A stretch of DNA of 30,174 bases, taken from a virus. Below are positions 1-16,015 of this stretch, one piece after another; position 1 is the stretch's first letter; every line of letters begins with the position of its first letter. The DNA is taken from IMG/VR virus record IMGVR_UViG_3300028920_000205, positions 1 through 30,174 of that record; one strand, given 5' to 3'. Below the pieces are notes generated by a model. It was not told the origin of the DNA. It did not search any database and saw only the letters and a list, made by a program, of their open reading frames with translations. The translations under genes and the position numbers were made by a program.

Positions 1-51
1 TTTTTTTTATATATTCACATTTATTCCTATATTTTTATTTTATTTTTAGGA

Positions 52-57
52 TATATA
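52..57 (+). promoter_or_regulatory. TATA-like box 1 (weak)
   Basis: A TATATA core lies in the context GGATATATAGAG. An archaeal start site about 26 bases downstream would fall near 80, just before an ATG at 85 that opens only 18 codons (85-141). There is no clear BRE, so this is a weak call; its main support is that two better TATA boxes lie in the next 260 bases. Confidence 0.25.
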
Positions 58-66
58 GAGAGGTAA

Positions 67-149
67 GTGGGACTTCCCTGTACCATGACAACATGTGGTA
101 TGCTAACACTTGACACGGCCGTCCCACAGCTAGATAGATAAACTCTAGC
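67..149. other. Structured GC-richer element, unknown
   Basis: GTGGGAC (67-73) pairs perfectly with GTCCCAC (121-127), enclosing a smaller stem TACCA/TGGTA (81-85 with 96-100, extendable by two G-T pairs). A separate six-pair hairpin GCTAGA/TCTAGC (129-134 with 144-149) follows. The block is clearly richer in G+C than its surroundings. The outer stem has seven pairs like a tRNA acceptor, but no T arm or anticodon arm can be drawn, so it is not called a tRNA. It may be a small RNA, a protein-binding site or part of an origin. Confidence 0.35.
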
Positions 150-198
150 ACGGTTGGTGATCCTAAACTATACTGATCAATAATGATCTTGGAGTAAT

Positions 199-214
199 GG
201 GAAACAGGTATATA
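199..214 (+). promoter_or_regulatory. Archaeal-type BRE/TATA promoter 2
   Basis: GGGAAAC (199-205) followed by AGG and TATATA (209-214) fits the archaeal purine-rich BRE plus TATA arrangement. The expected start site is near 238, inside the GCGAT/ATCGC hairpin. The transcript could be a small RNA or a leader of about 96 bases for the gene at 334. Confidence 0.4.
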
Positions 215-303
215 GACGTAAGATCAATACGCCCGCGATCCTATCGCCAGCGATCCAGCGAGTATGTGATCCTGATCCAGCCAAAACTTGAAAAAACCGA
301 CAA

Positions 304-313
304 CTATATATAG
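304..313 (+). promoter_or_regulatory. TATA box for leaderless gene at 334
   Basis: The core TATATATAG is centred about 26 bases before the ATG at 334. In archaea this spacing puts the transcript start at or next to the start codon, that is, a leaderless mRNA. No Shine-Dalgarno sequence precedes the ATG, which agrees with this. It is one of the better signs that the host transcription machinery is archaeal. Confidence 0.5.
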
Positions 314-333
314 TACCTACCCGATCCAGTATT

Positions 334-450
334 ATGGCAGAAAAAAAAGATTGGATAAGAGTCAAAGTCGAAACTGAAATATTGATCTCTACCGCTAAAA
401 TAAGGAATAAATATAACTATTGGAAACCTATTGATCTAAACGTACCATAA
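334..450 (+). CDS. Small basic protein, 38 aa, unknown
   Basis: I do not recognise this protein. It starts MAEKKDWIRVKVETEILIST and is rich in Lys, Arg and Ile with two Trp. The opening charged strand followed by a probable helix is reminiscent of small ribbon-helix-helix regulators, but 38 residues is short for that fold, so no function is assigned. Support for a real gene is its setting: a TATA box 26 bases before the ATG (leaderless pattern) and a long T-rich terminator beginning five bases after the stop. It is alone, rightward, and convergent with the small leftward operon ending at 535. Confidence 0.5.
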   Translation: MAEKKDWIRVKVETEILISTAKIRNKYNYWKPIDLNVP

Positions 451-452
451 AA

Positions 453-477
453 TTCTTTTTTTTTTTCTTTTTTTTTT
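453..477 (+). terminator. T-rich archaeal-type terminator
   Basis: Eleven T residues (456-466), one C, then ten T residues (468-477) follow directly after the stop codon at 450. Archaeal RNA polymerases stop at such U-rich tracts without needing a hairpin, and none is evident here. It ends the small gene at 334-450. Confidence 0.6.
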
Positions 478-514
478 GATGATCCAATTAAACATTTATT
501 TGCACGATTAGTTT

Positions 515-545
515 AAAAAAAGAAGGAAATAAACCTATTCCTTCT
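515..545 (-). terminator. Hairpin plus T7 terminator of the leftward operon
   Basis: AGAAGGAA (521-528) and TTCCTTCT (538-545) form a perfect eight-pair stem. Read on the minus strand it is followed at once by seven T residues (positions 521 down to 515, the first shared with the stem). The stem covers the stop codon of the gene ending at 535. This has the form of an intrinsic terminator, and the T tract alone would also suit archaeal termination. Confidence 0.65.
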
Positions 546-696
546 GTATTTTAATTCTAAATTTACCACAACCACAGGTTTCAGTTTTTAAATTAATTAA
601 ATGGTTTTCAACTACTTTTACTTTTTTATGACAAAATATACATGGAAACTCTCTTTTATATCTGTAAATATGAAGGTTTGATTGAATGATTGACAT
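535..696 (-). CDS. Small zinc-ribbon-like protein, 53 aa
   Basis: This is the third and last gene of a leftward operon. The 53-residue product has a CIFC pair near residue 19 and a CGCG pair near residue 41, separated by a basic Lys/Val stretch, so it probably folds round one zinc ion like a small zinc ribbon. Function is unknown; such proteins in viruses are often regulators or nucleic-acid binders, which is inference. The ATG at 696 lies six bases past the stop of the upstream gene, and the Shine-Dalgarno GGAGAG overlaps that gene's end, so the two are translationally linked. The stop lies inside the terminator hairpin. Confidence 0.7.
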   Translation of the reverse strand: MSIIQSNLHIYRYKREFPCIFCHKKVKVVENHLINLKTETCGCGKFRIKIQKE

Positions 697-702
697 TTTT
701 AT

Positions 703-963
703 TCACTCTCCTATTTCTTCTTCAGTTGCCCATCTTAAGAATTTACCGCAATTTCTACAAACATAAGAGCCATTACCTATTAACATAGGATAATGCTTTT
801 TACAATGCAATTTTATTTTAGGTTTTTCTAATACTTTTAAATCAATTCCAATGCTTTTAAGTTTCTTTAAACATTCTATTTCATAACTTATGTATTCCTT
901 TAATTCTTCTAGTTTTTTAATATTATTAATTTCAGATATTTGTTTTTTAATTTCATTAATCAT
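703..963 (-). CDS. Coiled-coil and zinc-ribbon protein, 86 aa
   Basis: This is the middle gene of the leftward operon. The first 45 residues are charged, heptad-like helix with many Lys, Glu, Ile and Leu, suggesting a coiled coil. The second half carries Cys54 and His57 followed by a CRNCGKFLRW segment (about residues 69-78), a likely zinc ribbon. The arrangement suggests a small dimeric regulator or adaptor, but no family is recognised. It begins two bases after the stop of the upstream gene and is separated by six bases from the downstream zinc-ribbon gene. The three genes very probably share one transcript from the promoter at 1451-1465. Confidence 0.8.
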   Translation of the reverse strand: MINEIKKQISEINNIKKLEELKEYISYEIECLKKLKSIGIDLKVLEKPKIKLHCKKHYPMLIGNGSYVCRNCGKFLRWATEEEIGE

Positions 964-965
964 TT

Positions 966-1412
966 TTAATTGCCCCCAACTAAAGAAAAAGAGTAAAGGA
1001 TTGTATCCTTTTTAAAGTATAAAGCATTATCAAGTTTCCTATGTTGTATATTATTTACAAGTATTGTATTATCTTCGTTAATTAGAGTATTTCCGTTATT
1101 ATGGTGGAAGTTTAATTTAAATTCATCTATTTGTTTTAAGATGTAATCAACTGTTAATTGATTATTATATTTGTTTGCTAATTTAATTGTGTCAATTATC
1201 CCAAAAACTATTGATACATCTATTATTTTATCTGGGTAATATTGACTATTCCTATCGATTTTAAACCTAAATCTAGGTTTATTATCGTGTATATTCTGGC
1301 TTAAGATAAGAGCATTTTTATTTCTTATCTTAAAGCCATATTCACTAGCTTCTTTTATTTTATCCAATCCATAAAATTCGGTTGGATTTGTTTGATATAT
1401 TATTTCACTCAT
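966..1412 (-). CDS. Unknown protein, 148 aa, first gene of leftward operon
   Basis: I do not recognise the family. The product is soluble with no membrane segment or signal peptide, rich in Asn, Ile and Lys. It has a central stretch of probable helices (about residues 65-100, including IIDTIKLANKYNN) and a C-terminal half that looks like beta strand. The ATG is well supported: minus-strand Shine-Dalgarno TAAGGAGAA lies just upstream. A promoter (1451-1465) and a perfect palindrome (1420-1439) precede it, so it is probably the regulated leading gene. Being transcribed against the virion genes, it may belong to an early or lysogeny-like regulatory set; that is inference. Confidence 0.8.
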   Translation of the reverse strand: MSEIIYQTNPTEFYGLDKIKEASEYGFKIRNKNALILSQNIHDNKPRFRFKIDRNSQYYPDKIIDVSIVFGIIDTIKLANKYNNQLTVDYILKQIDEFKLNFHHNNGNTLINEDNTILVNNIQHRKLDNALYFKKDTILYSFSLVGGN

Positions 1413-1419
1413 TTTTTAT

Positions 1420-1439
1420 TTCTCCTTACATAAGGAGAA
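1420..1439. promoter_or_regulatory. Perfect palindrome over start site and SD (candidate operator)
   Basis: TTCTCCTTA (1420-1428), two bases, then TAAGGAGAA (1431-1439) form a nine-base perfect inverted repeat. The minus-strand arm TAAGGAGAA is the Shine-Dalgarno of the gene starting at 1412. The start site predicted from the TATA box at 1451-1458 (about 1429) falls in its centre, so a dimeric repressor bound here would block initiation. If transcription began further upstream, the RNA would instead hide the Shine-Dalgarno in a hairpin. Confidence 0.5.
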
Positions 1440-1450
1440 TATTTACAGAG

Positions 1451-1465
1451 TATTTAAGTCTTTCG
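1451..1465 (-). promoter_or_regulatory. BRE/TATA promoter of the leftward operon
   Basis: On the minus strand CGAAA (1465-1461), two bases, then CTTAAATA (1458-1451) matches the archaeal BRE plus TATA layout. The start site expected about 25 bases downstream is near 1429, giving a leader of roughly 17 bases that carries the Shine-Dalgarno. Confidence 0.55.
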
Positions 1466-1697
1466 GTTTTTTTAACAAATGTTATCATGTAGCATGATTT
1501 ATGGTTTTTTATTTTATTTTAGATATTAGATAATAATGATTTTAGTCAATAGATATACAAAAATATATATTTCTATGTATTTGCTCTAGGATTGATTTTA
1601 AGCTATTCTAAAGCAAAAACTATGTTGTGAATAGTATAATAAGCGATAATAAGACTTTTTGCCTTTAAGGGTTATTATCAGCAATCCCATATAAAAT

Positions 1698-1750
1698 GTT
1701 GTACCTTTACTTAATAAAGGTTGCACCTTTACTTATATAAGGTTGTAAAG
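1698..1750. repeat. 22-base tandem repeat, iteron-like
   Basis: A 22-base unit occurs twice back to back (1698-1719 and 1720-1741), differing at three positions, with the shared core ACCTTTACTTA. It is followed by a partial third unit starting GTTGTA at 1742. Such head-to-tail repeats next to an A+T tract resemble iterons or multiple operator sites. The second unit ends in TTATATAAG, a possible TATA element. Confidence 0.5.
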
Positions 1751-2060
1751 TAAAACCTTGATTTATATATATATTTATATATTGAAATATGATAACTATT
1801 GTCATGGAATAATGTTCTTAACAATCGTTAATCATATATACAAAAATATATATATTCTATTTTAAGAATAAAAATAAAAAACCCCAAAATAAAAATCATA
1901 ATAATTATATAAAAATATCTAATAAAATAAATTTAATAAATCAAATATATAAGATATTAAAATATAAATAATTAAATAAATGAAATTCAAAAATTGAATT
2001 TTATATTTTTTTATTTTTATATAAATCCCAGCATAAAGAAGCCTTATTTATTTTTGATAG

Positions 2061-2172
2061 GAGATAAAAATACGCTTAGTTATCTACCTCCGGTATAACA
2101 CCCTAGGACTACTCCCCCCCATCATTCTTCAGCCACCACTCTACAGCATACCCAGCTGAGATCGAAGATCTC
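2061..2172. other. C-rich, G-poor island with hairpins (packaging-site candidate)
   Basis: Within very AT-rich DNA, about 2085-2160 is rich in C and poor in G on the plus strand, including a run of seven C at 2114-2120. It is flanked by AGATAA/TTATCT (2062-2067 with 2080-2085) and by a perfect hairpin GAGATC-GAA-GATCTC (2158-2172). It lies about 350 bases before the candidate small terminase gene, the usual neighbourhood of cos or pac sites. That location is the only functional clue. Confidence 0.3.
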
Positions 2173-2285
2173 TTGTGATTATTCTCTCATGTGGATTTTC
2201 TATCGTAATAACGGAATTCAAATTATATATTTGCTATAATTTTACCACGAATGTGGTTGATGAAAAATGGGGAGAAAATGACATA

Positions 2286-2299
2286 GAAACCTTTATATA
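2286..2299 (+). promoter_or_regulatory. Strong archaeal BRE/TATA promoter
   Basis: GAAAC (2286-2290) followed by C and TTTATATA (2292-2299) is a textbook archaeal BRE plus TATA box. The expected start site is near 2321, giving a leader of about 180 bases before the gene at 2502. It probably drives the packaging operon. Confidence 0.6.
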
Positions 2300-2379
2300 C
2301 TTTTTGGTGCTCAACAGGAGGGATTTATTTTTATCTAAAAAAAGTGCCACCAACCTATACCGTTGAGAGAGGGTATAAC

Positions 2380-2387
2380 TATATAAA
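2380..2387 (+). promoter_or_regulatory. Second TATA box before the packaging genes
   Basis: TATATAAA sits 80 bases after the preceding promoter. Its expected start site (about 2409) coincides with a small open frame whose ATG is at 2412. The two boxes form tandem promoters for the rightward genes. Confidence 0.45.
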
Positions 2388-2411
2388 CCTTTCTTACTAA
2401 TATTAGTATAT

Positions 2412-2480
2412 ATGACACAGTCAAGAATGGAGTGGCAAGCTATGCCGAGGATGTTGGAGGGAATTTATATTTATTTTTAG
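2412..2480 (+). CDS. Possible leaderless micro-ORF, 22 aa
   Basis: An ATG lies about 28 bases after the centre of a TATATAAA box and opens 22 codons (MTQSRMEWQAMPRMLEGIYI and two more residues). It would be leaderless. There is no homology or composition argument for it, and it could equally be an untranslated leader of the gene at 2502. It is listed because the same TATA-to-ATG spacing is seen at 304-334. Confidence 0.2.
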   Translation: MTQSRMEWQAMPRMLEGIYIYF

Positions 2481-2501
2481 ATATATTAAATAGTGTTTTA
2501 A

Positions 2502-3080
2502 ATGAGTAACGTTAACAAGATTATAAAGTATGGGATAGAGAGTGAAGTAGATCCACTTTTAGATGATGGTGTATCAGTCTATAAAATTGCTGAAATTATT
2601 AGTACTAACCATCAAGATAATCCAGAATTAAGGAATTGTTCTCATATGGTTCCTCAAAGATATAAGGAAACAAGAGAAAAGGATAAGATTAATGATATAA
2701 TAGAAGCTGGTAAAGATCCAACTGATGTTATAAATAAAGAGTTTATAAGTAAATTAAATGAAATTATTGAGAGATTCAAGAAATGGTCTGATGAGGCAGA
2801 GAGTTTATATGAAGAAGCTAAAACCGATGGTACACTTATGGAAAGGGTTAAGATATTAAAAGAGATAAGGGATAATATAGCCCAAGAAAGAAAGAGTTTA
2901 GAGTCTCTCAAGCAATATGGAACACGACAACAATCCAATATATATAATATAAGTCTCAAAAAGGAGCAGAATTTTAAACTTCAAATGATTGATATAGCTA
3001 AAGATCTATGCTCAGATTGCTCTAAAAAAGCACTAAGTAGACTTAGTAAGATTGTTGTTGATGATGTTGAGTCAAAATAA
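2502..3080 (+). CDS. Candidate small terminase subunit
   Basis: The 192-residue product has an N-terminal helical region (about residues 15-60) that could be a helix-turn-helix DNA-binding domain. A long charged coiled coil follows (about 75-140), then a C-terminal helix with a CSDC pair. DNA-binding head plus oligomerising coiled coil is the usual plan of phage small terminases, which recognise the packaging site and recruit the large subunit. Sequence similarity alone would not identify it; the call rests on architecture and on being the first rightward gene upstream of the large terminase. No Shine-Dalgarno is evident before the ATG. Its distance from the large subunit, with two membrane proteins between, is unusual, so a different role is possible. 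Confidence 0.5.
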   Translation: MSNVNKIIKYGIESEVDPLLDDGVSVYKIAEIISTNHQDNPELRNCSHMVPQRYKETREKDKINDIIEAGKDPTDVINKEFISKLNEIIERFKKWSDEAESLYEEAKTDGTLMERVKILKEIRDNIAQERKSLESLKQYGTRQQSNIYNISLKKEQNFKLQMIDIAKDLCSDCSKKALSRLSKIVVDDVESK

Positions 3081-3096
3081 TAAAAGGAGGAATATA

Positions 3097-3348
3097 ATGG
3101 CTAAATCTAAAAAGAGAACAGTGACGGTACCTTCTTATGATTGGAAGATAACTGCTAGGAAATTTGTAACTCAATTCTTATTAGTCGGTCTTTTAGCTGC
3201 CTTACTATGGGCATCAGAGGAAGGATTACCTGGTTTAATATTAGAACATCCTCAATATGCAGCATTACTATCGCTTGCTTCTGCTATAATAATAGCAATA
3301 TTCAATTATATAAGTCACTATAAAGATACAAAAGAAATAGAAGTTTAA
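3097..3348 (+). CDS. Two-helix membrane protein (holin-like), 83 aa
   Basis: The ATG at 3097 follows the Shine-Dalgarno AAAGGAGG; an upstream ATG at 3052 lies inside the preceding gene and has no such site. The product has a basic N terminus (MAKSKKRTVTV), a first hydrophobic helix at about residues 24-39 and a second at about 53-70, then a short charged tail. Size and two-helix topology resemble class II holins, small proteins that open the cell membrane for lysis. No lysis enzyme is adjacent and archaeal lysis systems are poorly known, so only the membrane assignment is firm. Confidence 0.65.
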   Translation: MAKSKKRTVTVPSYDWKITARKFVTQFLLVGLLAALLWASEEGLPGLILEHPQYAALLSLASAIIIAIFNYISHYKDTKEIEV

Positions 3349-3356
3349 ATATTAGA

Positions 3357-3460
3357 CTTATGTTGAATCAAAAATCACCGTTGACTACGAACGTTAAGTC
3401 GGTAAATCTAACTATAACATAAGGCCATGCCCAAATGGTTCTTAGATACAGGTGAATCTG
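3357..3460 (+). ncRNA. Structured RNA-like element between packaging genes
   Basis: CTTATGTT (3357-3364) pairs perfectly with AACATAAG (3416-3423). Nested inside is ACC...GACT (3377-3386) with AGTCGGT (3397-3403), a hairpin capped by AC/GT round GAAC. Downstream are small stems GCCA/TGGT (3424-3427 with 3436-3439) and AGAT/ATCT (3444-3447 with 3456-3459). The word CCAAATGGT occurs at 3431 and again near 3497. The 183-base gap (3349-3531) contains no gene. A folded leader or small RNA is the simplest reading, but it was found by eye. Confidence 0.35.
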
Positions 3461-3531
3461 CTTATTCCTATAATAATCGTTAAACAATAAACTGAACCAA
3501 ATGGTATGTTATTTATGTTATATTTAGGAAA

Positions 3532-3660
3532 ATGATGATGAAGATGGATTTGGATAAATGGTTATCCGATGCAGCTAAATGGATTCTACCGTTTTTCGGT
3601 TTTCTATTTATTGCAAAGGAAATATTTGGTCTATACTTCAGTTTAGGATTTAGTTTCTAA
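3532..3660 (+). CDS. Single-span membrane miniprotein, 42 aa
   Basis: The frame opens with three ATG codons after the Shine-Dalgarno AGGAA. It encodes a short charged N-terminal part (KMDLDKWLSDAAKW) and one hydrophobic stretch rich in Phe (about residues 18-42). It is probably a small membrane protein. Together with the two-helix protein at 3097 it makes a pair of membrane proteins between the terminase genes, perhaps lysis-related or membrane-associated in assembly; both ideas are inference. No family is recognised. Confidence 0.55.
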   Translation: MMMKMDLDKWLSDAAKWILPFFGFLFIAKEIFGLYFSLGFSF

Positions 3661-3688
3661 GGTAAATCTTAGATTGATTATTAAAAAT

Positions 3689-3706
3689 TATGTTTTTATG
3701 TTTTTT
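3689..3706 (+). promoter_or_regulatory. Intergenic ATGT motif, copy before large terminase
   Basis: The sequence TATGTTTTTATGTTTTTT has two ATGT words eight bases apart in a T-rich setting and ends 17 bases before the terminase ATG. It belongs to a family of similar motifs in gaps across the rightward region, a candidate late promoter element or U-rich transcript-end signal. Confidence 0.4.
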
Positions 3707-3723
3707 ATTTCTTATGATTCTTT

Positions 3724-5139
3724 ATGGTTGATAAAAACTTTGAGACAATAAAATATACACTCGATCCTATAGCATTTATTGTAGATGTGTTAGGATTGGT
3801 ATGTAAGAATTTCCATAAAGAATGGATAAATCTATTTGAGAAAAATAAATACGTATCTCTCTTAGCTCCTAGAGGACACGGTAAAAGTTGGTTAGTTGGA
3901 GCATATATAGTATGGAAAATGGTAAGAGATCCAAATATTAGGATCTTAACGGTAACCATTAACCAAGATAAGGCTAATGAAATGATGACTTTTGCACAAG
4001 GTCATCTGGTTAATAATATTAAATTAATAGAATTATTTGGTGAACAGAAGGGTTTCAGTGAGTGGTCCCGATCAACTCTTAGGTTAAAACGATCTGGAAG
4101 CGGTGGAGTAGCTCACAAGGAACCCACATTTACTGTATCATCGGTAACCTCCTCAATGGTTGGGGGTCACTATGACATAATAATATTAGATGATATAACT
4201 GATGAGAAAAACTCCAGAACTCCCTATAGAAGAAAAGAATTAGAAAGTTGGTATAATAATACCCTTACTCCTATGCTAGAACCCGAAGGACAAATTATAT
4301 CTATAGGAACCAAGTGGCATGAAAATGATATTCATGGTTACTTGTCTAAATTAGAAAACTATAAAACTAAAACCTATAAAGCGATAATAGATGAAGAAAA
4401 TGAGAAAGTTTTATGGCCAGAAAGATGGTCTTATAAGAAACTTCTTCAAAGAAAGTCGGGTATGGGAAGCATTGGTTTTGAGATGCAATATCAGAATGAA
4501 ATTGTATCTAGTGAAGATTCACCCATAAAAAGAGATTGGATTGAATACGCTATTGAGAATTATAAGATGATACCTCAACCCTTTGATGTATATATGGGAG
4601 TTGATTTATCATCAAAGGGAGAGGAAACTGATTATTTTACAATATCCATAATAGGAATAAGTGAAGGTTCTGTCTACCTACTAGATGGACTTAGAACTAA
4701 AGCATCTTTATTTAGACAATTCGAGTTGATTAAATCTTATGATAGGAAGTGGAATCCAGTAAAGATAGGAATTGAACAAGCTGCACAACAAAAAATGATA
4801 GTAGATCAATTGACTGAATCTACAACCCTTCCTATAATACCAATAAAATCGTCTATCGTAAATGATAGAATGTCAAGAGTTCAAAGATTATCAGTATTAT
4901 TTGAAACTGGAAGAATATATTTAAACCCAAAGTTAGAAAACTGGTCTAATGAGCTTATTTCTTATCCTAGGGGAGCAAATGATGATACCATAGATTCATT
5001 GTCATTTGCAATCCAAACATCTCAATTAGAAGATGAAGAAGTTAATATAGACTGGAAATCTATACCTGAAATGATTTCAAAAAAATCAAGGGGTACAAAT
5101 AATGTTAGTAAGTATAAAGTTACAAAAATAGGGAGGTAG
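3724..5139 (+). CDS. terL: Terminase large subunit (packaging ATPase and nuclease)
   Basis: This motor protein cuts concatemeric viral DNA and drives it into the prohead through the portal. The 471-residue length is typical. The ATPase domain shows Walker A APRGHGKS (residues 48-55), Walker B IIILDD (152-157) followed by an acidic cluster, and the coupling motif SIGTKWHEND (193-202). The C-terminal RNase H-like nuclease has its metal ligands in GVDLS (Asp294), GIEQ (Glu351) and NDDTIDSL (Asp421/Asp424). All key residues are present, so it should be active. The start at 3724 has no strong Shine-Dalgarno but follows the ATGT motif. The next gene begins two bases after its stop. Confidence 0.95.
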   Translation: MVDKNFETIKYTLDPIAFIVDVLGLVCKNFHKEWINLFEKNKYVSLLAPRGHGKSWLVGAYIVWKMVRDPNIRILTVTINQDKANEMMTFAQGHLVNNIKLIELFGEQKGFSEWSRSTLRLKRSGSGGVAHKEPTFTVSSVTSSMVGGHYDIIILDDITDEKNSRTPYRRKELESWYNNTLTPMLEPEGQIISIGTKWHENDIHGYLSKLENYKTKTYKAIIDEENEKVLWPERWSYKKLLQRKSGMGSIGFEMQYQNEIVSSEDSPIKRDWIEYAIENYKMIPQPFDVYMGVDLSSKGEETDYFTISIIGISEGSVYLLDGLRTKASLFRQFELIKSYDRKWNPVKIGIEQAAQQKMIVDQLTESTTLPIIPIKSSIVNDRMSRVQRLSVLFETGRIYLNPKLENWSNELISYPRGANDDTIDSLSFAIQTSQLEDEEVNIDWKSIPEMISKKSRGTNNVSKYKVTKIGR

Positions 5140-5141
5140 TT

Positions 5142-5411
5142 ATGGAGGAAATATACATAGGAAGTAAGGACATTTCTAGATATATTTCGGCTTGTTTCTA
5201 TTCTCTAGGAAAGGATAAGGATATTAAGATAATAGCTAGGGGAAATAATATTAAGAGGGCTATAGATATCTTAGCTATACTAATTAGAGACTACTTAGAG
5301 AAACCAGAGTATACCATTAAGGTTGGAAGCGAGCCCTTTGAAAAAAGAAATGTTTCCACTATTGAAATAAGTCTTTCTGGAATAAAGAAAGGAAAATTAG
5401 AAGAAAAATAA
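5142..5411 (+). CDS. Alba-family chromatin protein, viral
   Basis: The 89-residue product aligns along nearly its whole length with archaeal Alba, a dimeric DNA/RNA-binding chromatin protein. It shows the start strand IYIGSKDISRYI, the loop IKIIARGNNIKRAIDI (ARG at 32-34), and the closing VGSEPFEKRNVSTIEISL with the STIEI signature at 72-76. Lys9 and Arg13 lie where Alba has its nucleic-acid-contacting lysines. It begins two bases after the large terminase stop and is followed 18 bases later by the portal, so it belongs to the packaging operon. It may coat or compact viral DNA, affect packaging, or bind viral RNA. Identification by pattern is strong; the role is inference. Confidence 0.85.
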   Translation: MEEIYIGSKDISRYISACFYSLGKDKDIKIIARGNNIKRAIDILAILIRDYLEKPEYTIKVGSEPFEKRNVSTIEISLSGIKKGKLEEK

Positions 5412-5429
5412 GTTTAAAGAGGATATTAA

Positions 5430-6710
5430 ATGGGAATTTTTACATCTTTAAGAAATAGATTACTCCCCAGTAGATCTATATATTTAGATGGTGAAGGTAA
5501 ATATAAAACCATTATAGCTACAGGTAAACAAGGATCTAAGGGAATGGGATCATCAGATAGAAGTGAATCTCAATTAAAGAAATATTGGAATTATTATGAA
5601 GGAGAGAATACTGTATTTGCAGCTATAAATACAACTGCTTGGAATACAGTTATGGTAGGTTATAATTTAACATCTGATAATGATAATGCTAAAAAATTAA
5701 TTAGTGATACTCTATCTAATATTAATTTAGATTTAGTTCTATTAGATAATGTAATATTTACATTAGTTTATGGAGATTCTTTTATAGAAATAGTTAAGAA
5801 TAGTAAGGGAGAAGTCACTGATCTCAAAACTGTTGATCCAACTACTGTTGTAATAAATAGTAACGAGTATGGTGTAGTTGAATCTTATCAACAGAAAATA
5901 CAAGGTCAACTCCAAAATACTATATTAAAACCAGAGGATATAATTCATATTAAGTTCTTTACAAATCCTACATCTCCTTATGGAATTTCTTTAATAAAGC
6001 CATCTCAAGACACAATAGATAGAAAAATAGATACAGATGATGCTTTAGCTAATGCAATCATGAGACACGGCACTAGTAAATATGTAGTAACAGTTGGTAA
6101 TGAAGAGGAAATACCACCTCCAGATGTATTCAATGAGATAAAGAGAGAATTAGAGGATATAACTGAAACTAATGAATTCATAGTTCCAGGCTTAATAGAC
6201 ATTAAAGCTATAGATGAAAGAGGAATACCAGGAGTAGAAGAGTATTCTTCAATGTTCCAAACTCAATTAGTTATAGGAATGCTATGTCCAGAAGAAGCCT
6301 TAGGTTTAGGAAAGGGATCTACTGAATCGACTGCAACGGTAAAACAAATAATGTATGAGAGGATGATTAGAGCCTTTCAATTAAGGATCACCAAACAATT
6401 ACAAAGTGAATTATTTAATTATCTACTAGAAAAAAATGGTTTTGATTTAAATATTGTAACTATGAGATTCAATTCTGTAACTGATGCAGATGAAGCAGTT
6501 AAAGCTAAATGGTTAGGAAATCTACTAAGAGGTTACAGACCTGAAGAGGGTAAACCCTTCACTAAGGATGAAGTAAGAGCTATGTTTGGTTACGGACCTA
6601 TAGAGACTAAAAAGGAAGAGGAAGAAACTCCAACGTCCGAACCTCAAGAAAATGTACCTGAAGAAGATGAAGAAGAAAATGAAGAAGATGAAGGAGAAGA
6701 ATCTACATAA
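5430..6710 (+). CDS. Portal protein
   Basis: This 426-residue protein should form the twelve-part ring at one capsid vertex through which DNA enters and to which the tail attaches. Recognisable parts are the N-terminal wing (about 60-190, with LVYGDSFIEIVKN and IIHIKFFTNP), the stem region and a long helix round PEEALGLGKGSTES and IMYERMIRAFQLRI (about 285-330), and the crown. The C terminus (about 385-426) is an acidic Glu/Asp tail. Size and position directly after terminase fit the family. The Shine-Dalgarno GAGGA precedes the ATG. The acidic tail overlaps the start of the protease gene in another frame. Confidence 0.9.
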   Translation: MGIFTSLRNRLLPSRSIYLDGEGKYKTIIATGKQGSKGMGSSDRSESQLKKYWNYYEGENTVFAAINTTAWNTVMVGYNLTSDNDNAKKLISDTLSNINLDLVLLDNVIFTLVYGDSFIEIVKNSKGEVTDLKTVDPTTVVINSNEYGVVESYQQKIQGQLQNTILKPEDIIHIKFFTNPTSPYGISLIKPSQDTIDRKIDTDDALANAIMRHGTSKYVVTVGNEEEIPPPDVFNEIKRELEDITETNEFIVPGLIDIKAIDERGIPGVEEYSSMFQTQLVIGMLCPEEALGLGKGSTESTATVKQIMYERMIRAFQLRITKQLQSELFNYLLEKNGFDLNIVTMRFNSVTDADEAVKAKWLGNLLRGYRPEEGKPFTKDEVRAMFGYGPIETKKEEEETPTSEPQENVPEEDEEENEEDEGEEST

Positions 6711-7182
6711 TCCTATAATAAAATTTGATTATGATAAGAAGTATATCTCAAAGGATACAGACTTTAGGATATATAGAGATGCTATAATGTTAACTCCAGG
6801 AGAATTCACTGATTCTCTATCAAGATATCCAGTAGTGTACACTGAAGAGGAATTAAAGAAGTCTGCAAAGATATGGTCAGATAATTATCTTAACGTTGAT
6901 CATTCCTTTGAAGTCCAAAAAAGAATAGGTTTCGTTAAAAATTCTTACTATAAGGATGGTGGAGTTAGAGGAGATCTATATATTCATCAATTAACTAACG
7001 CTAGTAAGGAAACTATTGCTTTAATAGATGCAGGGTTGGTTAATTGGTTATCAGTTGAATTATTAACTGAAGATAAATGGAATGCTGAAGATAATAAGAG
7101 ATATGCATCTGATATAGAATTCATTGGATGTGCTGTGGTATTACATCCAGCATGTGATGGAACAAAAATCAATGGGGATTAA
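6688..7182 (+). CDS. Prohead maturation protease 1 (S78/XkdF-like)
   Basis: This protein probably cleaves capsid or scaffold during head maturation. From the ATG at 6688 it has 164 residues, with the candidate catalytic His in NVDHS (His72), Ser in NWLSVELL (Ser122), and the usual closing strand DIEFIGCAVVLHPACD (142-157). Other in-frame ATGs (6652, 6667, 6679) lie deeper in the portal gene; 6688 gives the least overlap, though none has a clear Shine-Dalgarno. It carries no scaffold extension. It is a distant partner of the larger protease at 9493; each is paired with its own capsid protein gene downstream. Protease fold is likely, catalytic assignment less certain. Confidence 0.7.
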   Translation: MKEKNLHNPIIKFDYDKKYISKDTDFRIYRDAIMLTPGEFTDSLSRYPVVYTEEELKKSAKIWSDNYLNVDHSFEVQKRIGFVKNSYYKDGGVRGDLYIHQLTNASKETIALIDAGLVNWLSVELLTEDKWNAEDNKRYASDIEFIGCAVVLHPACDGTKINGD

Positions 7183-7186
7183 ATAT

Positions 7187-7342
7187 ATGGAAAAGAAACT
7201 GATAGTTTGCTCATTTTATAATAAGTGTAAAAATTATCCAGATAAGTGTGATAATTGTAAGTGGAATGCCAGTATTAAATTAGAGGATAATCTATTACTA
7301 GAAACTAAGGATGGAAAATCCATCAGATATCTTGGTGAATAA
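7187..7342 (+). CDS. Four-cysteine zinc protein, 51 aa
   Basis: The protein has Cys8, Cys14, Cys21 and Cys24 within its first half (VCSFYNKCKNYPDKCDNCKW), a probable zinc-binding cluster, and a charged second half. I do not recognise a family. The ATG at 7187 follows GGGGAT and lies five bases after the protease stop; an earlier in-frame ATG at 7124 lies within the protease gene. It sits between protease 1 and the HIT-like gene, so it may be an accessory head factor or a small regulator. Confidence 0.65.
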   Translation: MEKKLIVCSFYNKCKNYPDKCDNCKWNASIKLEDNLLLETKDGKSIRYLGE

Positions 7343-7664
7343 CTTGGAAGATCAAATTCTAGTTAAGAGTTGTCCATTATGTGAGATATTTCAAAAACCT
7401 AAAATAGGTATAAAAACTAAATTATACTGGCCAGAAAAAATAGAAAATATACCAAAATCTGAATTTGTTATTGTAAATTGTTTATCCTGTAAAGTTCCTA
7501 TGGTAGTTTATGGAGAACATCTTACCTCAATAACCAACGAAGCTTGGGGAAGAATCCTATACATCTGTAGAAAAAAATTTGGAAGAAATATAACTCTAAG
7601 ACACAAACCCAGAACAATTAGGGATCATTATCATTGTCATATATATAATATAGATAAAAAATGA
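7311..7664 (+). CDS. HIT-like protein with paired CxxC motifs
   Basis: The product ends in RDHYHCHIYN, which contains an exact histidine triad pattern (His106, His108, His110 with hydrophobic spacers). Upstream are CPLC (21-24) and CLSCKVPMVVYGEHL (57-71), the order expected of HIT-superfamily proteins: N-terminal zinc pair, central strand with a His, terminal triad. HIT enzymes hydrolyse or transfer nucleotidyl groups. If active it might act on nucleotides or nucleotidylated protein. An ATG at 7311 overlaps the preceding gene by 32 bases without a Shine-Dalgarno; a TTG at 7344, five bases after GGTGA, may be the true start and leaves both motifs intact. The next gene overlaps its stop as ATGA. 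Confidence 0.6.
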   Translation: MENPSDILVNNLEDQILVKSCPLCEIFQKPKIGIKTKLYWPEKIENIPKSEFVIVNCLSCKVPMVVYGEHLTSITNEAWGRILYICRKKFGRNITLRHKPRTIRDHYHCHIYNIDKK

Positions 7665-7762
7665 AATATAAATTTTGGAATTTGGCATCAAAAATTTCTT
7701 GGATAGTTTTAAGTATAATTGGATTTATAGTAGTATTAAAATTATTAGAAATTATAGAATAA
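7661..7762 (+). CDS. Single-span membrane miniprotein, 33 aa
   Basis: The ATG overlaps the stop of the HIT-like gene in an ATGA arrangement, a typical sign of translational coupling. The 33 residues are a short amphipathic start (MKYKFWNLASKIS) and one hydrophobic helix (about 14-29, WIVLSIIGFIVVL). It is probably a small membrane protein of unknown role. It is too short for homology, so support is coupling and composition only. Confidence 0.5.
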   Translation: MKYKFWNLASKISWIVLSIIGFIVVLKLLEIIE

Positions 7763-7768
7763 TATATT

Positions 7769-7785
7769 TATGTATTTAATAATGT
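7769..7785 (+). promoter_or_regulatory. Intergenic ATGT motif before capsid gene 1
   Basis: ATGTATTTAATAATGT (7770-7785) has two ATGT words twelve bases apart. The same 16 bases occur exactly at 19014-19029, before a fibre gene. It precedes the GGTGAT ribosome site of the capsid gene. Confidence 0.45.
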
Positions 7786-7804
7786 TTTATAAAGGTGATT
7801 AAAA

Positions 7805-8758
7805 ATGTCAAAACTAACAAGACTTCTAGAATACTATTGTGCTGGAAACAGCAAAAGACGTAGTCTAATGGACAAAGATTCGTTTATCAATAATTTTAAT
7901 AAACAAGAGAAACAACTCCTATTAAGTGAAGTGGGGGAAACTGATTTAGTTTCAAGAGAATTAATAGCTGCAATAGTACAAGGAGCTGAAAGAAGACAAT
8001 CAGCAAGAAAATTATTGCCCATTATTAATACTAATAGTAATACTTGTAGAATAGTTTGCAATACAGATCCATCAGGTCAATATGCACCATACGTGGCAGA
8101 GGGAGGTGCAATAGAACAGGATAGTATAATTTATGATGAGACTGATGTAACAATCAAGAAGGCAGCAGTAGCTCCTTATATAACAAATGAACTTATTGAA
8201 GATGAAAAGTTTGATTGGATAGAATTAGAATTACAGAGAGCAGGTGCCAAATTAGAAAATAAACTTAATCAAGAAGCAATAACAACTATGTTGGACTCTA
8301 TAAGTATGACTAATGATATAGATCCGGCAGGTACTCACATCGCCTTATCCGATATAGGTAGGGCTAAGATGGAAGTAGATAATATGGGTTGGAATGCTGA
8401 TTCATTATTCTTAGAACCATATGGATATGCTTATATGATAGATGAAACTAACTTTGGAGATATAACTAAGGGAGATAATAAGGTTATAGGTCTAAATGCA
8501 TCTATATTAGATGCTAAGGCAGATTCTGTATCGGGCAATGCATCAAGATATAGATTCTGGGATGGAGTAGATACAGGATATCATTATTGTGGTTTAGTGT
8601 TTGATTCCATGAACTTTGCTGCAATAGTTATGAGAGAAGATATTAATACCAATAAAATAAAGGACCCTATTCATGATTTAACCAAATTGACTGCTAAAAT
8701 GAGATTTGGTATTGGAGTATATAATCCTAATGCTGGTTGCAGAGTATTAACTAAGTAA
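7805..8758 (+). CDS. Major capsid protein 1 (HK97-fold candidate)
   Basis: The 317-residue protein is paralogous to the one at 11642: both open MSKLT(R/K)LLEY and share the VAEGG/VAEGA loop near residue 97, VTIKK.../VTIDK..., the helix (Y/L)ITNELIED, LELQRAGA/LELKKAGA with following ENKLN/ENALN, ISDI, DPIHDL, MRFG and a Gly-Cys near the end. These are features of HK97-fold shell proteins: N-arm, E-loop, spine helix and P domain. The start follows GGTGAT with five-base spacing. It sits downstream of protease 1 and differs most from its paralogue in the middle third. It could be the main hexamer protein, a vertex protein or a subfunctional copy. Confidence 0.85.
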   Translation: MSKLTRLLEYYCAGNSKRRSLMDKDSFINNFNKQEKQLLLSEVGETDLVSRELIAAIVQGAERRQSARKLLPIINTNSNTCRIVCNTDPSGQYAPYVAEGGAIEQDSIIYDETDVTIKKAAVAPYITNELIEDEKFDWIELELQRAGAKLENKLNQEAITTMLDSISMTNDIDPAGTHIALSDIGRAKMEVDNMGWNADSLFLEPYGYAYMIDETNFGDITKGDNKVIGLNASILDAKADSVSGNASRYRFWDGVDTGYHYCGLVFDSMNFAAIVMREDINTNKIKDPIHDLTKLTAKMRFGIGVYNPNAGCRVLTK

Positions 8759-8767
8759 AGTTAAATT

Positions 8768-8785
8768 TATGTTTTAATGTTTTTG
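8768..8785 (+). promoter_or_regulatory. Intergenic ATGT motif before PAS gene
   Basis: TATGTTTTAATGTTTTTG carries ATGT at 8769 and 8777, eight bases apart, as before the large terminase. A possible ATG start at 8777 is the second ATGT word and is therefore probably not a start codon. Confidence 0.4.
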
Positions 8786-8800
8786 TATATTAAAACTGAT

Positions 8801-9244
8801 ATGTCCGAAAATCTTAATAAACTTAATAGATTAACTAAGGAATTAGCTGAAGAGATAAAGTATGAGGAAACTGGACCAGCTCTAAAATTCTGTAAATTGA
8901 TTCTTGGCTCAATAAAATCTCCAGCCTTTATAATAGATAAAGATTATAATCTAATTTATGGAAATCCAGAAGCTGAAAGACTTGGTAAGAAATATAATGT
9001 CTTTACTAAATCAGGTATTGGTAAAAAATGCTATGAGGTACAATATCCAGGTCAAGGAGGACCTTGTAAAGATTGTCCAGCAATAAAGGCAATAAAAACA
9101 AAAAAAGTTGAGAATACAGAATGGAAATCAAAAAACTCTAAAATAACCTATATGGTTACTGATATCCCTTTGGTTTATAATGGTGTATCTGGGGTGATAG
9201 AGATACTTAATCCAATAAAAAGAGTGAATAATAATGGCAAATAA
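8801..9244 (+). CDS. PAS-domain protein with cysteine cluster
   Basis: The protein has a short N-terminal helix (residues 1-35) and a PAS sensor fold: SPAFIIDKDYNLIYGNPEAERL (40-61 region), the central helix, and the closing strands YMVTDIPLVYNGVSGVIEIL. Cys77, Cys89 and Cys92 (GKKCYEV, GGPCKDCPAI) form a cluster seen in many methanogen PAS sensors, where it may bind iron-sulphur, haem or zinc. No output domain is present. The ATG at 8801 is chosen over 8777, which lies inside the ATGT motif. It lies between capsid gene 1 and protease 2, an unexpected place for a sensor. It may be a captured host gene or a virion component. Confidence 0.75.
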   Translation: MSENLNKLNRLTKELAEEIKYEETGPALKFCKLILGSIKSPAFIIDKDYNLIYGNPEAERLGKKYNVFTKSGIGKKCYEVQYPGQGGPCKDCPAIKAIKTKKVENTEWKSKNSKITYMVTDIPLVYNGVSGVIEILNPIKRVNNNGK

Positions 9245-9482
9245 TGATTTTGATAAGTGGGATATGAAGGTAGCTGAATGGAGAGGATATACCCTTAGAG
9301 CACTTGAAGATTTAAATGGAGATGTACAACATCTTAAAAAATCTTGTGATAATATGGAAAAAAAGTTAGAAAATATAGAAAATAAATTAACAAATCAAAC
9401 CATTAAAATAGGTATAACATCAGGAATTATAGGTTTATTTGCAGGATTAATTGTATCGGTTATGGTAAATATATTAATATAA
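9234..9482 (+). CDS. Coiled-coil protein with C-terminal membrane anchor
   Basis: The 82-residue product has an N-terminal charged helix with heptad spacing (about 15-55, LEDLNGDVQHLKKSCDNMEK) and one C-terminal hydrophobic helix (about 57-80). This plan resembles the XhlA-type proteins that accompany holins in some Gram-positive phages, but sequence identity is not evident. The gene overlaps the end of the PAS gene by 11 bases and is followed 10 bases later by protease 2. Membrane anchoring is likely; role unknown. Confidence 0.65.
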   Translation: MANNDFDKWDMKVAEWRGYTLRALEDLNGDVQHLKKSCDNMEKKLENIENKLTNQTIKIGITSGIIGLFAGLIVSVMVNILI

Positions 9483-9492
9483 GGACGATATA

Positions 9493-11109
9493 ATGCCAGT
9501 TCCAAAAGAGGGAGAAACCCGAGATAAATTTATAAGTCGTTGTATTCCTTATGTTATACATGAGGGAACAACTGATGATCCCAAACAAGCTGCAGCAATA
9601 TGCTACTCAATATGGAGAAAGCATCATCCAGGAGCTAAATCTGAAGATGAGGATAAGGCTTATAATTGTGAATGTATAGAGTGTGGTTACACTATGGAAT
9701 CTGAAGAACATTGTAAGGATATTACCTGCCCAGAATGTGGAGGAGAAATGAGGAGAGCAGAAAGACCTGGAGTAGGTAAGAGTGAAGATATATATCTACC
9801 TAAATTAGGAGATATAAAATTAAACTTACCAAAGTTTGAGTTGGTTTTAAGACCCATAATAGAAAATAAGGTCGAAGAAATTGAAGAAATTAATAAATTA
9901 GATTCAATATCAGTTCCCTTTGATCTTAGAGGTAATATAAAAATAATAGAAAAATCAGATAATAAGAGAGTAATTGCTGGTTACGCTAATATAGCGGTAG
10001 TTGATCTTGAAGATCAATTTATTCCAATAGAAACTCTTAAGAAGGGAATAGAATCATTACTTAAGGATCCTCATTATTCAAACTTAATGTTGGTTCATAA
10101 AAATATTCAAATAGGAAAAATAATTCCTAAATTTGGAGAATTAACTACTCATGTTGATGATAAAGGCTTATTTATTGTTGCAGAAATCAGAAGAGATATA
10201 AAAACAGCTGATGAAGTATGGGAATCTATATTAAATAAAGATATTAATGGATTCTCGATTGGTTGTGAAGTTTTAGAACATCATGAAGAATGTGATGATA
10301 ATAAGTGTATTACAGTACTTGATGAAATAAATATTTTTGAGGTAAGTGTTTGCACTCATCCCGTTAATAAACAATCAGGCTTTATAGTAGTTTCAAAATC
10401 TAGTGATTATGTATGTGATGAATGTTATATAAATAATGATATAATGACAAAAACAAAGGATAAAACAAAAACAGATTCTAAGAAATCAGAGGAAACTGAA
10501 GAAGACATCATAGAAGAGTCTGTTGAGGAACCTCAGAAAGAAGTTAAGGAAGAAAAACAAGAAGAAGATGAAGAAGAAAAGACCGAAGAAGAAACAAAGG
10601 AAGAAGAACCATCTGAGGAACCTGAAGAGAAATCAATCGAGGAAAGATTAGACATACTAGAAAGAGCTATATCAACAATTTCATCTGCTATAGAAGAAAT
10701 TACTACTAAACAAGACGAAGAGGAAATGCCAGAGGAAGAACTTCCAGAAGAAGAACCTGAAGAGGAAGTAGTCGAAGAATCAGAAGAGAAAGAAGAAGAA
10801 GAACTTTCTGAAGAGGAAAAAACAGAGGAAAAAACAGAACCTTATGAGGAACTCTTTAAGAGCATAAATACTCTTTTAGAAAAATTATCAGAGAAAAGTG
10901 ACATAGAGGAATTGAAATTAGCAATAAAATCAAGGGACGATAAAATCAGTGAATTAGAAGAAAGGGTAAAGGTAATCAATAAATCTTCAAAGAAAGAAGA
11001 AAAAGTTGATAAAGGAAAACCAAAAACTCTTCAATCTGAAACTGAACCCGAATTAGAAGAAGATAACCCTATCAGGGTAGAAAATGGTATGGTCTATTAC
11101 AAGGAATAA
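9493..11109 (+). CDS. Prohead protease 2 with zinc ribbon and scaffold-like tail
   Basis: This 538-residue protein is modular. Residues 1-47 (KEGETRDKFISRCIPY, AAAICYSIWRKHHPG) form a small domain often found at the front of phage head proteins. Residues 59-90 hold a zinc ribbon (CECIECG and CPECGGEM). An S78/XkdF-like protease follows with candidate His202 (LVHKN), Ser255 (NGFSIG) and the strand EINIFEVSVCTHPVN (278-292). Residues 330-465 are mostly Glu and Lys, then coiled coil, consistent with an internal scaffold that is cut away. Joining protease and scaffold in one chain is known in several phages. Shine-Dalgarno AAGGACG precedes the ATG. The decoration and second capsid genes follow. 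Confidence 0.8.
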   Translation: MPVPKEGETRDKFISRCIPYVIHEGTTDDPKQAAAICYSIWRKHHPGAKSEDEDKAYNCECIECGYTMESEEHCKDITCPECGGEMRRAERPGVGKSEDIYLPKLGDIKLNLPKFELVLRPIIENKVEEIEEINKLDSISVPFDLRGNIKIIEKSDNKRVIAGYANIAVVDLEDQFIPIETLKKGIESLLKDPHYSNLMLVHKNIQIGKIIPKFGELTTHVDDKGLFIVAEIRRDIKTADEVWESILNKDINGFSIGCEVLEHHEECDDNKCITVLDEINIFEVSVCTHPVNKQSGFIVVSKSSDYVCDECYINNDIMTKTKDKTKTDSKKSEETEEDIIEESVEEPQKEVKEEKQEEDEEEKTEEETKEEEPSEEPEEKSIEERLDILERAISTISSAIEEITTKQDEEEMPEEELPEEEPEEEVVEESEEKEEEELSEEEKTEEKTEPYEELFKSINTLLEKLSEKSDIEELKLAIKSRDDKISELEERVKVINKSSKKEEKVDKGKPKTLQSETEPELEEDNPIRVENGMVYYKE

Positions 11110-11159
11110 ATGTCAGATAATGTATCTTATAATATGTTAAAATAAAATAGAGGAAGAAT

Positions 11160-11573
11160 ATGGCATTTACAACAACAACAAGCCCATCTGAAGATATTAT
11201 AGTTCAAGAAGGAACATTTGCTTTTGACTATGATTGCTCAGGTTCTGTATATGCAGGTCAGGGAGTTTTAGCTGTAGGAACTATGCAAGTTATAGCACCA
11301 GGAAGTTTTCAAAATAAACCTGTTGGTACTGCTTGTGTAGGAGTAGCAGCATATGATCAAACTGATGGTAATCCAGTAGCTGTATATGGACCAGGGAATA
11401 TTTGTAGAGTTATAGTTTCAGGTACGGGCGTGGCAGCTGGAGATGTACTAGCTTGTAGTGATCATGGAAAGTTCATGGATACCCCAGCAGCTTATACAAC
11501 TTCGGGAGTTAATGCAATAGCATTAGAGACCCAATCAACAAATAATGGTACTTGTAAGGTATTATTATTCTAG
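11160..11573 (+). CDS. Capsid decoration/cement protein (DUF2190-like)
   Basis: The 137-residue protein is Gly, Val, Ala and Thr rich with repeated short strands (VYAGQGVLAVGT, GTACVGVAAYDQTDG, CRVIVSGTGVAAGDVL) and no charged helices. This is the composition of small beta-barrel capsid-stabilising proteins such as DUF2190 members, which bind the outside of expanded heads. Position between protease 2 and capsid protein 2 is where such genes usually lie. The start follows AGAGGAAG. Family assignment is by pattern. Confidence 0.65.
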   Translation: MAFTTTTSPSEDIIVQEGTFAFDYDCSGSVYAGQGVLAVGTMQVIAPGSFQNKPVGTACVGVAAYDQTDGNPVAVYGPGNICRVIVSGTGVAAGDVLACSDHGKFMDTPAAYTTSGVNAIALETQSTNNGTCKVLLF

Positions 11574-11581
11574 TTTAATAA

Positions 11582-11598
11582 CTAATTATTATAATTAG
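11582..11598. promoter_or_regulatory. Perfect palindrome before capsid gene 2
   Basis: CTAATTAT, one base, ATAATTAG: eight-base perfect arms just after the decoration gene. ATGT words follow at about 11603-11620. It could be a binding site or a hairpin trimming or stabilising the abundant capsid transcript. Confidence 0.35.
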
Positions 11599-11641
11599 AT
11601 ATAATGTATGTTATATCATGTTAATTTAATAGGTAAAATAT

Positions 11642-12616
11642 ATGTCAAAATTAACTAAACTCTTAGAATATGGTTATGCAGGAAATAACGAAAGAAGTAG
11701 GTTACTTAACAAACAATCCTTCAAAAATGCAGTAGGAAAAGAAACTCATGCTCTTCTCCAATCAGAGAGAACAGCAATTGCTGATTCAACATTGGTACAA
11801 GAAGAAGTTTATAAAACAGTAATTGAAGGAACTGAACCAATGAAATGCATGAGGGAAGTAGTCCCCATAATACAAACAAATTCTTATTCAGTTAGGTTTG
11901 TTGAAGGAGAAGCTGGAACTTATGCTAATAAAGTAGCTGAAGGAGCTAAAATAGAGATAGATACTCAAGAGTATTCAAAGCACGATGTTACCATAGATAA
12001 ATATGGTGTAAGGCCTCTTATAACTAATGAACTAATTGAAGATGCTCTCTTTGATGTAGTGGAATTAGAACTTAAAAAGGCTGGTGCAAGAATGGAGAAT
12101 GCTCTAAATAGAAAGATTCTATATCAAATGATTGCTGGAACCAATAAAATAACTACCAATACATTAAATCCAGCTGGACCTCACATCGCAATATCAGATA
12201 TAGCTCAGGCAGTAGGCAAAGTCAAAAAGCAAAATTACATGCCAGATACTCTTGTATTACATCCAACTGCAGAAGCCTATCTATTACAAGATTCAAATCT
12301 AGCATACGCATCATACGCAGCTGGAGCAGGAGCATTAAGACAAGGAGATGTTGGATCTACATTATTGGGATTAAAACCATATACTTGTACAGCAACTGAT
12401 GCAGCATCACCAGTTTGGGATGATACTACAGCTGGAAGCGATATAACCGGTATAGTATTCTCAAAGAATGATTTAGCCGTAACTTGTATGAGAAGAGATT
12501 TAACAATTGAGCAATACGATGATCCAATCCATGATCTTATTGGAATGTCACTTACAATGAGATTTGGAGCAGATGTATTAGCTGAAACAGCTGGCTGTGT
12601 AATATATCACAAGTAA
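11642..12616 (+). CDS. Major capsid protein 2 (HK97-fold candidate)
   Basis: The 324-residue protein is a clear paralogue of the one at 7805 (same opening MSKLTKLLEY, ITNELIED, LELKKAGA, DPIHDL, MRFGAD). It lies in the more usual capsid position, after a scaffold-bearing protease and a decoration protein, so it may be the main shell protein. It also matches the classical layout HLALSD/HIAISD helix and a substantial P-domain insertion rich in Ala and Gly (about 218-235, YASYAAGAGALRQ). GGTAAAATAT precedes the ATG. Two diverged capsid proteins could build hexamers and pentamers separately, as in T4, or be alternative shells. Confidence 0.85.
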   Translation: MSKLTKLLEYGYAGNNERSRLLNKQSFKNAVGKETHALLQSERTAIADSTLVQEEVYKTVIEGTEPMKCMREVVPIIQTNSYSVRFVEGEAGTYANKVAEGAKIEIDTQEYSKHDVTIDKYGVRPLITNELIEDALFDVVELELKKAGARMENALNRKILYQMIAGTNKITTNTLNPAGPHIAISDIAQAVGKVKKQNYMPDTLVLHPTAEAYLLQDSNLAYASYAAGAGALRQGDVGSTLLGLKPYTCTATDAASPVWDDTTAGSDITGIVFSKNDLAVTCMRRDLTIEQYDDPIHDLIGMSLTMRFGADVLAETAGCVIYHK

Positions 12617-12648
12617 TCTAAGAGAATCAATAATAACCATATAGTTTA

Positions 12649-12675
12649 TATGTATTATGTTTTTATATTTATGTA
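12649..12675 (+). promoter_or_regulatory. Intergenic ATGT motif after capsid gene 2
   Basis: ATGT occurs at 12650, 12657 and 12671 in a T-rich stretch beginning 33 bases after the capsid stop codon, in the same manner as the other copies. Confidence 0.4.
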
Positions 12676-12701
12676 TATTGTTATAAATAGTTGGAATGAA
12701 T

Positions 12702-12983
12702 ATGCCAGGAGCAAAAATTCCAGTATTAGAAATAGAAAATTTAACTATAACTGATAATGGTAGAGGAATACTCTTATATAATGATGGTACTAATGTCCAT
12801 TTAGGACAAGATTGGACAGGAATTTCGTCTCAGTCTTCAGAAGCTAGTAAGAAATTCTTCCCAGCCGCAAGCTCATCAGGTTGGGTAGGAATACATTTGA
12901 TATCTGGAAATACTTATGGTCCTACTGGTGCTGTATACTATATACCCCTATTTAGTAACTTAGATACAAATCTATCATCCTAA
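12702..12983 (+). CDS. Small virion-associated protein, paralogue A
   Basis: The ATG at 12702 is chosen over 12696 because the next gene starts with the same MPGAK sequence. The 93-residue product is strand-rich: an opening segment KIPVLEIENLTITDNGRG, a variable middle with DWTG, and a closing SSSGWVGIHLISGNTYGPTG block. It matches its neighbour at 12997 along its length, so the pair arose by tandem duplication. No family is recognised. Location directly after the capsid gene suggests a head decoration, stopper or adhesion protein. Confidence 0.7.
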   Translation: MPGAKIPVLEIENLTITDNGRGILLYNDGTNVHLGQDWTGISSQSSEASKKFFPAASSSGWVGIHLISGNTYGPTGAVYYIPLFSNLDTNLSS

Positions 12984-12996
12984 TTGAGGTGAATCA

Positions 12997-13266: not shown

Positions 13267-13274
13267 GTAGAGTT

Positions 13275-13544: not shown

Positions 13545-13546
13545 GT

Positions 13547-13978: not shown

Positions 13979-13980
13979 CT

Positions 13981-15034: not shown

Positions 15035-15043
15035 GTGATATAA

Positions 15044-15442: not shown

Positions 15443-15525
15443 ATGTATATTAAATATTTGTTTAAATAGATTAGTAATGTAATTAATAAGTAAGTTTTAA
15501 TGTATAAAAGATAGGTAAATTAATT

Positions 15526-16002: not shown

Positions 16003-16015
16003 GAGGTGATATAAT

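Follow-up and report, generated by a model that had tools for sequence, protein, structure and literature searches.

A virus-encoded Alba-family protein between the terminase and portal genes in a poorly charted lineage of tailed viruses

An Alba-family gene in the packaging module

The window analysed here is a stretch of viral DNA of 30,174 nucleotides (IMG/VR record IMGVR_UViG_3300028920_000205, positions 1 to 30,174). An HK97-type tailed-virus module is present in the order TerL (terminase large subunit), portal, prohead protease and major capsid, with Pfam/PHROG matches at 3724-5139, 5430-6710, 9493-11109, 7805-8758 and 11642-12616. The features of the packaging region described below (2502 to 7664) are all on the + strand. 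TerL (3724..5139, 471 aa) was recognised by PHROG terminase (E 5.5e-86) and Pfam Terminase_6C (39.4 bits), and the portal protein (5430..6710, 426 aa) by Pfam Phage_portal (E 8e-13) and PHROG portal (E 7.5e-29). Between them lies an ORF encoding 89 aa (5142..5411), whose ATG follows the TerL stop (5137-5139) with a gap of 2 nt and whose end is separated from the start of the portal gene, also ATG, by 18 nt. An SD-like GGGAGG (5131..5136) precedes the start of this ORF and touches the TerL stop codon.

Upstream of TerL, we infer that the product of 2502..3080 is the small terminase, from its position and its retention in relatives. The AlphaFold2 model of this candidate is all-helical (pLDDT 86.6), with an HTH-like N-terminal part followed by long helices. 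A PDB fold search with the model returned no small terminase among its matches; even so, the candidate is better placed for that role than the 89-aa protein, which was set aside as a small terminase. A small conserved protein with a hydrophobic stretch, which has homologues in most relatives, is encoded between the candidate and TerL (3097..3348; ATG 3097 was chosen as the start inside a listed ORF of 3052-3348). Downstream, an ORF that overlaps the end of the portal gene (6652..7182) encodes a protein that is kept in relatives and has no match in Pfam or PHROG. It is followed by a small CxxC-containing protein that is likewise kept (7311..7664).

A sequence-only reading of the window had called the 89-aa product Alba, squeezed between terminase and portal with gaps of 2 and 18 bases. 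The gaps are exact, and profile searches and structure prediction confirm that the ORF encodes a genuine member of the Alba family. Pfam PF01918 (Alba) matches it at 35.8 bits (E 7.1e-9), above the gathering cut-off of 25 bits. Two NCBIfam Alba models, TIGR00285 and PRK04015, also match (E 7.5e-10 and 6.5e-8 for the two matches), although at 32.5 against 88.25 bits and 38.9 against 90, respectively, their equivalog/subfamily cut-offs are not reached. The best PDB sequence match is the Alba structure 1nfh (E 3e-6). The AlphaFold2 monomer model (pLDDT 90.8) has a beta-alpha-beta-alpha-beta-beta fold, and in a Foldseek search of the PDB the top-ranked structures were all Alba, ahead of other folds; among the best matches were 2z7c (E 4.9e-8) and, with the highest TM score of 0.82, the Alba2-DNA complex 3u6y. 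All 21 of the viral homologues scanned against Pfam matched Alba and no second family, whilst no PHROG family matches the window protein.

Elsewhere in the window, two HK97-type major capsid genes (7805-8758 and 11642-12616, both Pfam Phage_capsid) occur in one module; the prohead protease gene and genes for a PAS-like and a small coiled protein lie between them. Four adjacent similar genes at 15526-17447 encode proteins of about 150-170 aa with the common motif SDFSLT...G..EQ.L.G..GN; these look like tandem duplicates and are perhaps tail-tube proteins. After the structural genes, an EamA-type transporter and a B12-binding radical SAM enzyme are encoded at 24501-26832.

Conservation of the gene order among relatives

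Relatives were collected from IMG/VR with single proteins and profiles, and their genes were mapped by profile. The resulting TerL tree contained 59 contigs including the window, a few of which form near-identical pairs. Alba was found between TerL and portal in 56 of these 59 contigs (55 of the 58 relatives), down to a TerL identity of 36%. Like the profile and fold checks, the survey for this order suggested in the sequence-only reading gave a positive result. The remaining three contigs (L176, L190, L197) have no Alba in the slot, showing that the packaging module can work without it. Nor was Alba found in the most distant TerL relatives (L198-L201, 30% identity or less). The recurrent order is candidate small terminase, small hydrophobic protein, TerL, Alba, portal, conserved protein and CxxC protein, the outer genes being missing from fragments and from some relatives. 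Median gaps in the relatives are 12 nt between TerL and Alba and 4.5 nt between Alba and portal, and an SD-like motif precedes 45 of 54 Alba starts. The recurrence of this order in dozens of divergent contigs, together with strong purifying selection, shows that the ORF at 5142-5411 is not a chance reading frame. Some viral Albas (L063, L179, L185, L188) form a subgroup with an insertion of 20-30 residues directly before the third strand.

With the viral Alba, a cellular Alba and the window portal as queries, tblastn found nothing in 50,697 phage records (INPHARED); the absence of Alba from cultured phages holds at the sensitivity of tblastn, which may miss very divergent short proteins. The lack of a portal match in this collection indicates that the virus lineage is poorly charted. 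When viral contigs were scanned with a cellular-Alba profile, only members of the window's own virus lineage were recovered.

We found no account of a virus-encoded Alba in the open-licence literature searched. Viruses are absent from a broad survey of Alba (PMC11621453), and papers on the viromes of ANME-1 and Thermococcales make no reference to Alba in their main text. The conserved packaging-operon setting is unreported in the open literature and phage records searched, though it may have been described earlier elsewhere or be annotated in a database.

Evolution and constraint of the viral Alba

A tree was built from 55 distinct viral Albas and 28 cellular rows (26 from Thermoplasmatota, plus the crystal-structure proteins Sso10b and AF1956, whose sequences were entered by hand), a sampling that names no donor lineage. 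All but one of the viral Albas (54/55) form a single clade with support of 100/100 on a stem of 1.16, apart from the 28 sampled cellular rows. The exception, L192, is a divergent copy with cellular-like motifs and an uncertain placement on a long branch; its TerL is among the most distant. A tree holding all cellular rows together was not rejected (p-AU 0.53). In a search of 293 Thermoplasmatota genomes with the viral profile, the cellular Albas listed reached about 55 bits at best, and a viral copy in a metagenome-assembled genome (MAG) scored 159. Distances in the Alba and TerL trees are correlated (Mantel r 0.66, with none of 2000 permutations as high), and the viral Alba has been inherited in step with TerL.

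Moreover, the gene is more constrained than its neighbours. Compared with close relatives (L002-L008, L010, L011), the window Alba has 82-89% identity and a dN of 0.07-0.12, against 61-73% and 0.19-0.28 for TerL and an identity of 61-70% for the portal. The dN of Alba is 1.7-4 times below that of TerL and the lowest of the five module genes compared; in distant relatives this difference fades. Synonymous differences over the same close comparisons are near saturation (pS 0.65-0.79). Low dN combined with near-saturated synonymous sites marks Alba as an old gene under strong constraint, and recent transfer or exchange is ruled out as the source of its high identity.

Comparison with cellular Alba and other known proteins

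Archaeal Alba/Sac10b proteins (Sso10b, Ssh10b, Sis10b, AF1956, Mja10b, Ape10b2; PF01918) share their fold with the viral protein at about 25-35% identity in aligned structures, and both have K17, Y22, R42 and the ARG motif. The roles of nucleic-acid-contact and patch residues were taken from work on Sis10b (PMC7498313). In the alignment, equivalents of K17, Y22 and R42 are present in 52/55, 55/55 and 55/55 viral Albas. In contrast, two other nucleic-acid contacts of cellular Alba, K16 and R44, have mostly been lost. The hydrophobic dimer-dimer patch through which cellular Alba bridges fibres (M20/L24/L27/F60) is, judged from aligned residues, largely replaced, its positions being mostly S/P/K, S/T, F/L and Y/gap/H. 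Three further basic residues are near-invariant in the viral proteins: K38 (54/55; usually S in cellular Alba), R49 (55/55; usually N) and R69 (53/55; S or R). The long stem in the tree and the location of the gene in a packaging operon also distinguish the viral Alba.

The short beta3-beta4 hairpin is another difference from archaeal Alba/Sac10b, but it was rejected as a virus-only trait: a cellular Thermoplasmatota paralogue (e.g. L095, L112) has the same hairpin, although it groups with cellular Albas and has F60 and cellular-type motifs. The best BFVD match was a SpoVS-like phage protein (A0A6J5QJM8) with an Alba-like superfamily fold; it belongs to another family and the match is weak (TM 0.57 normalised by query, 19% identity). 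Virus-encoded histones (PMC11222145, PMC11500106) are likewise viral chromatin proteins, but with an unrelated fold and in different viruses, and the likeness is one of analogy only.

Host

Alba is a widespread nucleic-acid-binding and chromatin protein of archaea. The sequence-only reading had treated it as the strongest host indicator in the window, and the host is indeed probably archaeal. Alba by itself does not prove this, however, since a few metagenomic bacteria also carry it (PMC11621453). Further support for an archaeal host comes from a 115 kb relative, whose genes include one for an ERCC4-domain protein and one for a Rad51-like ATPase that has a SWIM zinc finger. One GTDB genome, a Guaymas Thermoplasmata MAG, contains a 4.1 kb contig (L036) of the window's virus family. 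A TerL search of 80 genomes of the same class returned that MAG and two weak matches in one other genome. The contig is accordingly weak evidence of host and may be misbinned, as the other genomes of the class have no close TerL. At the nucleotide level, positions 1-20000 of the window gave one long match in 390 Thermoplasmatota genomes, namely the viral contig binned with the MAG. The remaining matches are short; many fall near 6.65-6.7 and 10.5-10.8 kb, in stretches rich in glutamate codons, and no convincing spacer was found among the matches.

Possible functions of the viral Alba

The sequence-only reading had suggested that a viral copy could coat DNA ahead of packaging, take the place of host chromatin on viral DNA or act on a packaging-related RNA. 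The setting of the gene argues strongly for a core function linked to the head/packaging module, and the virus lineage probably needs Alba to handle nucleic acid during particle assembly. That the viral protein binds nucleic acid is likely from its family and its residues. We tentatively favour a non-bridging viral Alba that acts on viral genomic DNA at packaging, although our confidence in this explanation as a whole stays a little under even. Alba would be co-transcribed with TerL and portal, would dimerise and would bind nucleic acid through the K17/Y22/R42 equivalents and the virus-specific K38, R49 and R69. As the fibre-bridging patch is largely replaced, it would coat DNA without cross-linking it. 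The ligand would most likely be viral genomic DNA rather than RNA; the position of the gene, its constraint and the altered patch suggest DNA entering the motor, but they do not by themselves discriminate between the two ligands. At this step Alba may keep viral DNA free of bridging host chromatin and present it to the terminase-portal motor, and it perhaps remains inside the head as a minor protein component. There is a precedent in SSV1, whose virions contain a host chromatin protein according to a passage of PMC10848311 citing Quemin et al. 2015.

This explanation is favoured by the fixed TerL-portal slot, the lowest dN, the kept contact residues and the replaced patch; a histone-fold protein in one Alba-less relative (G010, described below) adds a hint from a single genome. 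It is weakened by the loss of most K16 and R44 equivalents, by the tie of K17 to RNA in Sulfolobus, and by the three Alba-less lineages that still have the module. Packaging motors also generally strip DNA-bound proteins, which counts against it.

The same residues bear on an RNA-binding role, in which Alba would bind, or chaperone, either a packaging RNA so far unseen or the late mRNA of the virus, controlling folding or translation. We regard this as unlikely, but it has points in its favour: a Sulfolobus Alba is an RNA chaperone requiring K17, a residue tied to RNA rather than DNA (PMC7498313), and K17 is the basic loop residue that viral Albas keep whilst K16 and R44 are lost. However, the oligomerisation patch is also needed for the RNA chaperone activity of Sis10b (PMC7498313), and this patch is altered in viral Albas. 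No known RNA family was found in the window, and a general RNA task explains the fixed TerL-portal slot less directly.

Rather less probable is that Alba serves mainly as an accessory of the motor or connector, docking on portal, TerL or the small terminase and binding nucleic acid only as a secondary activity. The tight placement between two genes whose products touch during packaging would suit such a role, as would the correlation with TerL distances and the surface residues K38 and R49, which are invariant in viruses only. Correlated distances are nevertheless predicted by vertical inheritance by itself, and the residues invariant across viral and cellular Albas are the nucleic-acid contacts.

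We consider it improbable that the viral Alba acts on host chromatin, where it would displace or mix with the host's Alba and either shield viral DNA or alter the expression of host genes, with the operon position serving only late expression. The protein family is consistent with this, as is the presence of two cellular Albas in the Thermoplasmata MAG that also contains a relative. Against it, a long distance separates the viral clade from the cellular Albas sampled, and the dimer-dimer patch for mixing with host fibres is changed. Host-takeover genes are, moreover, commonly early and outside the structural module. Finally, the idea that Alba is a host gene of recent capture, a passenger with no core function, has nothing beyond small gene size to recommend it and is refuted for the window's lineage by conservation: near-saturated synonymous divergence accompanies high protein identity, and one deep viral clade occupies the same slot across distant TerLs.

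Returning to the packaging-DNA explanation, a wider version would be an archaeal tailed-virus lineage that as a whole uses Alba as a non-bridging DNA coat in packaging or the virion, with a histone comparable in at least one Alba-less relative. This is doubtful. A histone-fold protein (L207, G010:C1:50863-51198, - strand; Pfam PF00808, 27.7 bits against a cut-off of 21.4) is encoded by G010, a 63 kb relative that lacks Alba, and its gene lies outside the packaging operon. No histone-fold protein was found in any other of the 31 relatives searched, several of which are short fragments; with a single genome and such records, the histone is a hint only.

Linked to TerL, fixed in its slot and more constrained than the terminase, the viral Alba makes chromatin handling during archaeal tailed-virus packaging testable. 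It also appears to be a natural variant in which the fibre-bridging patch has changed and the core contacts are retained.

Other features of the relatives

The largest relatives (L067-L074, a 155 kb record; L075-L080, 115 kb; L085-L092, 144.5 kb) contain tens of kilobases of sugar-nucleotide, glycosyltransferase and radical-SAM type genes, as read by eye from translations, which are apparently a cluster for surface-glycan synthesis. Large intein-like inserts occur within the TerL genes of L002, L003, L006, L014, L016 and L197 and within the portal genes of L008, L009, L037 and L057. In a ribonucleotide reductase gene (L075:2329-4530), an intein splicing domain was confirmed by Pfam.
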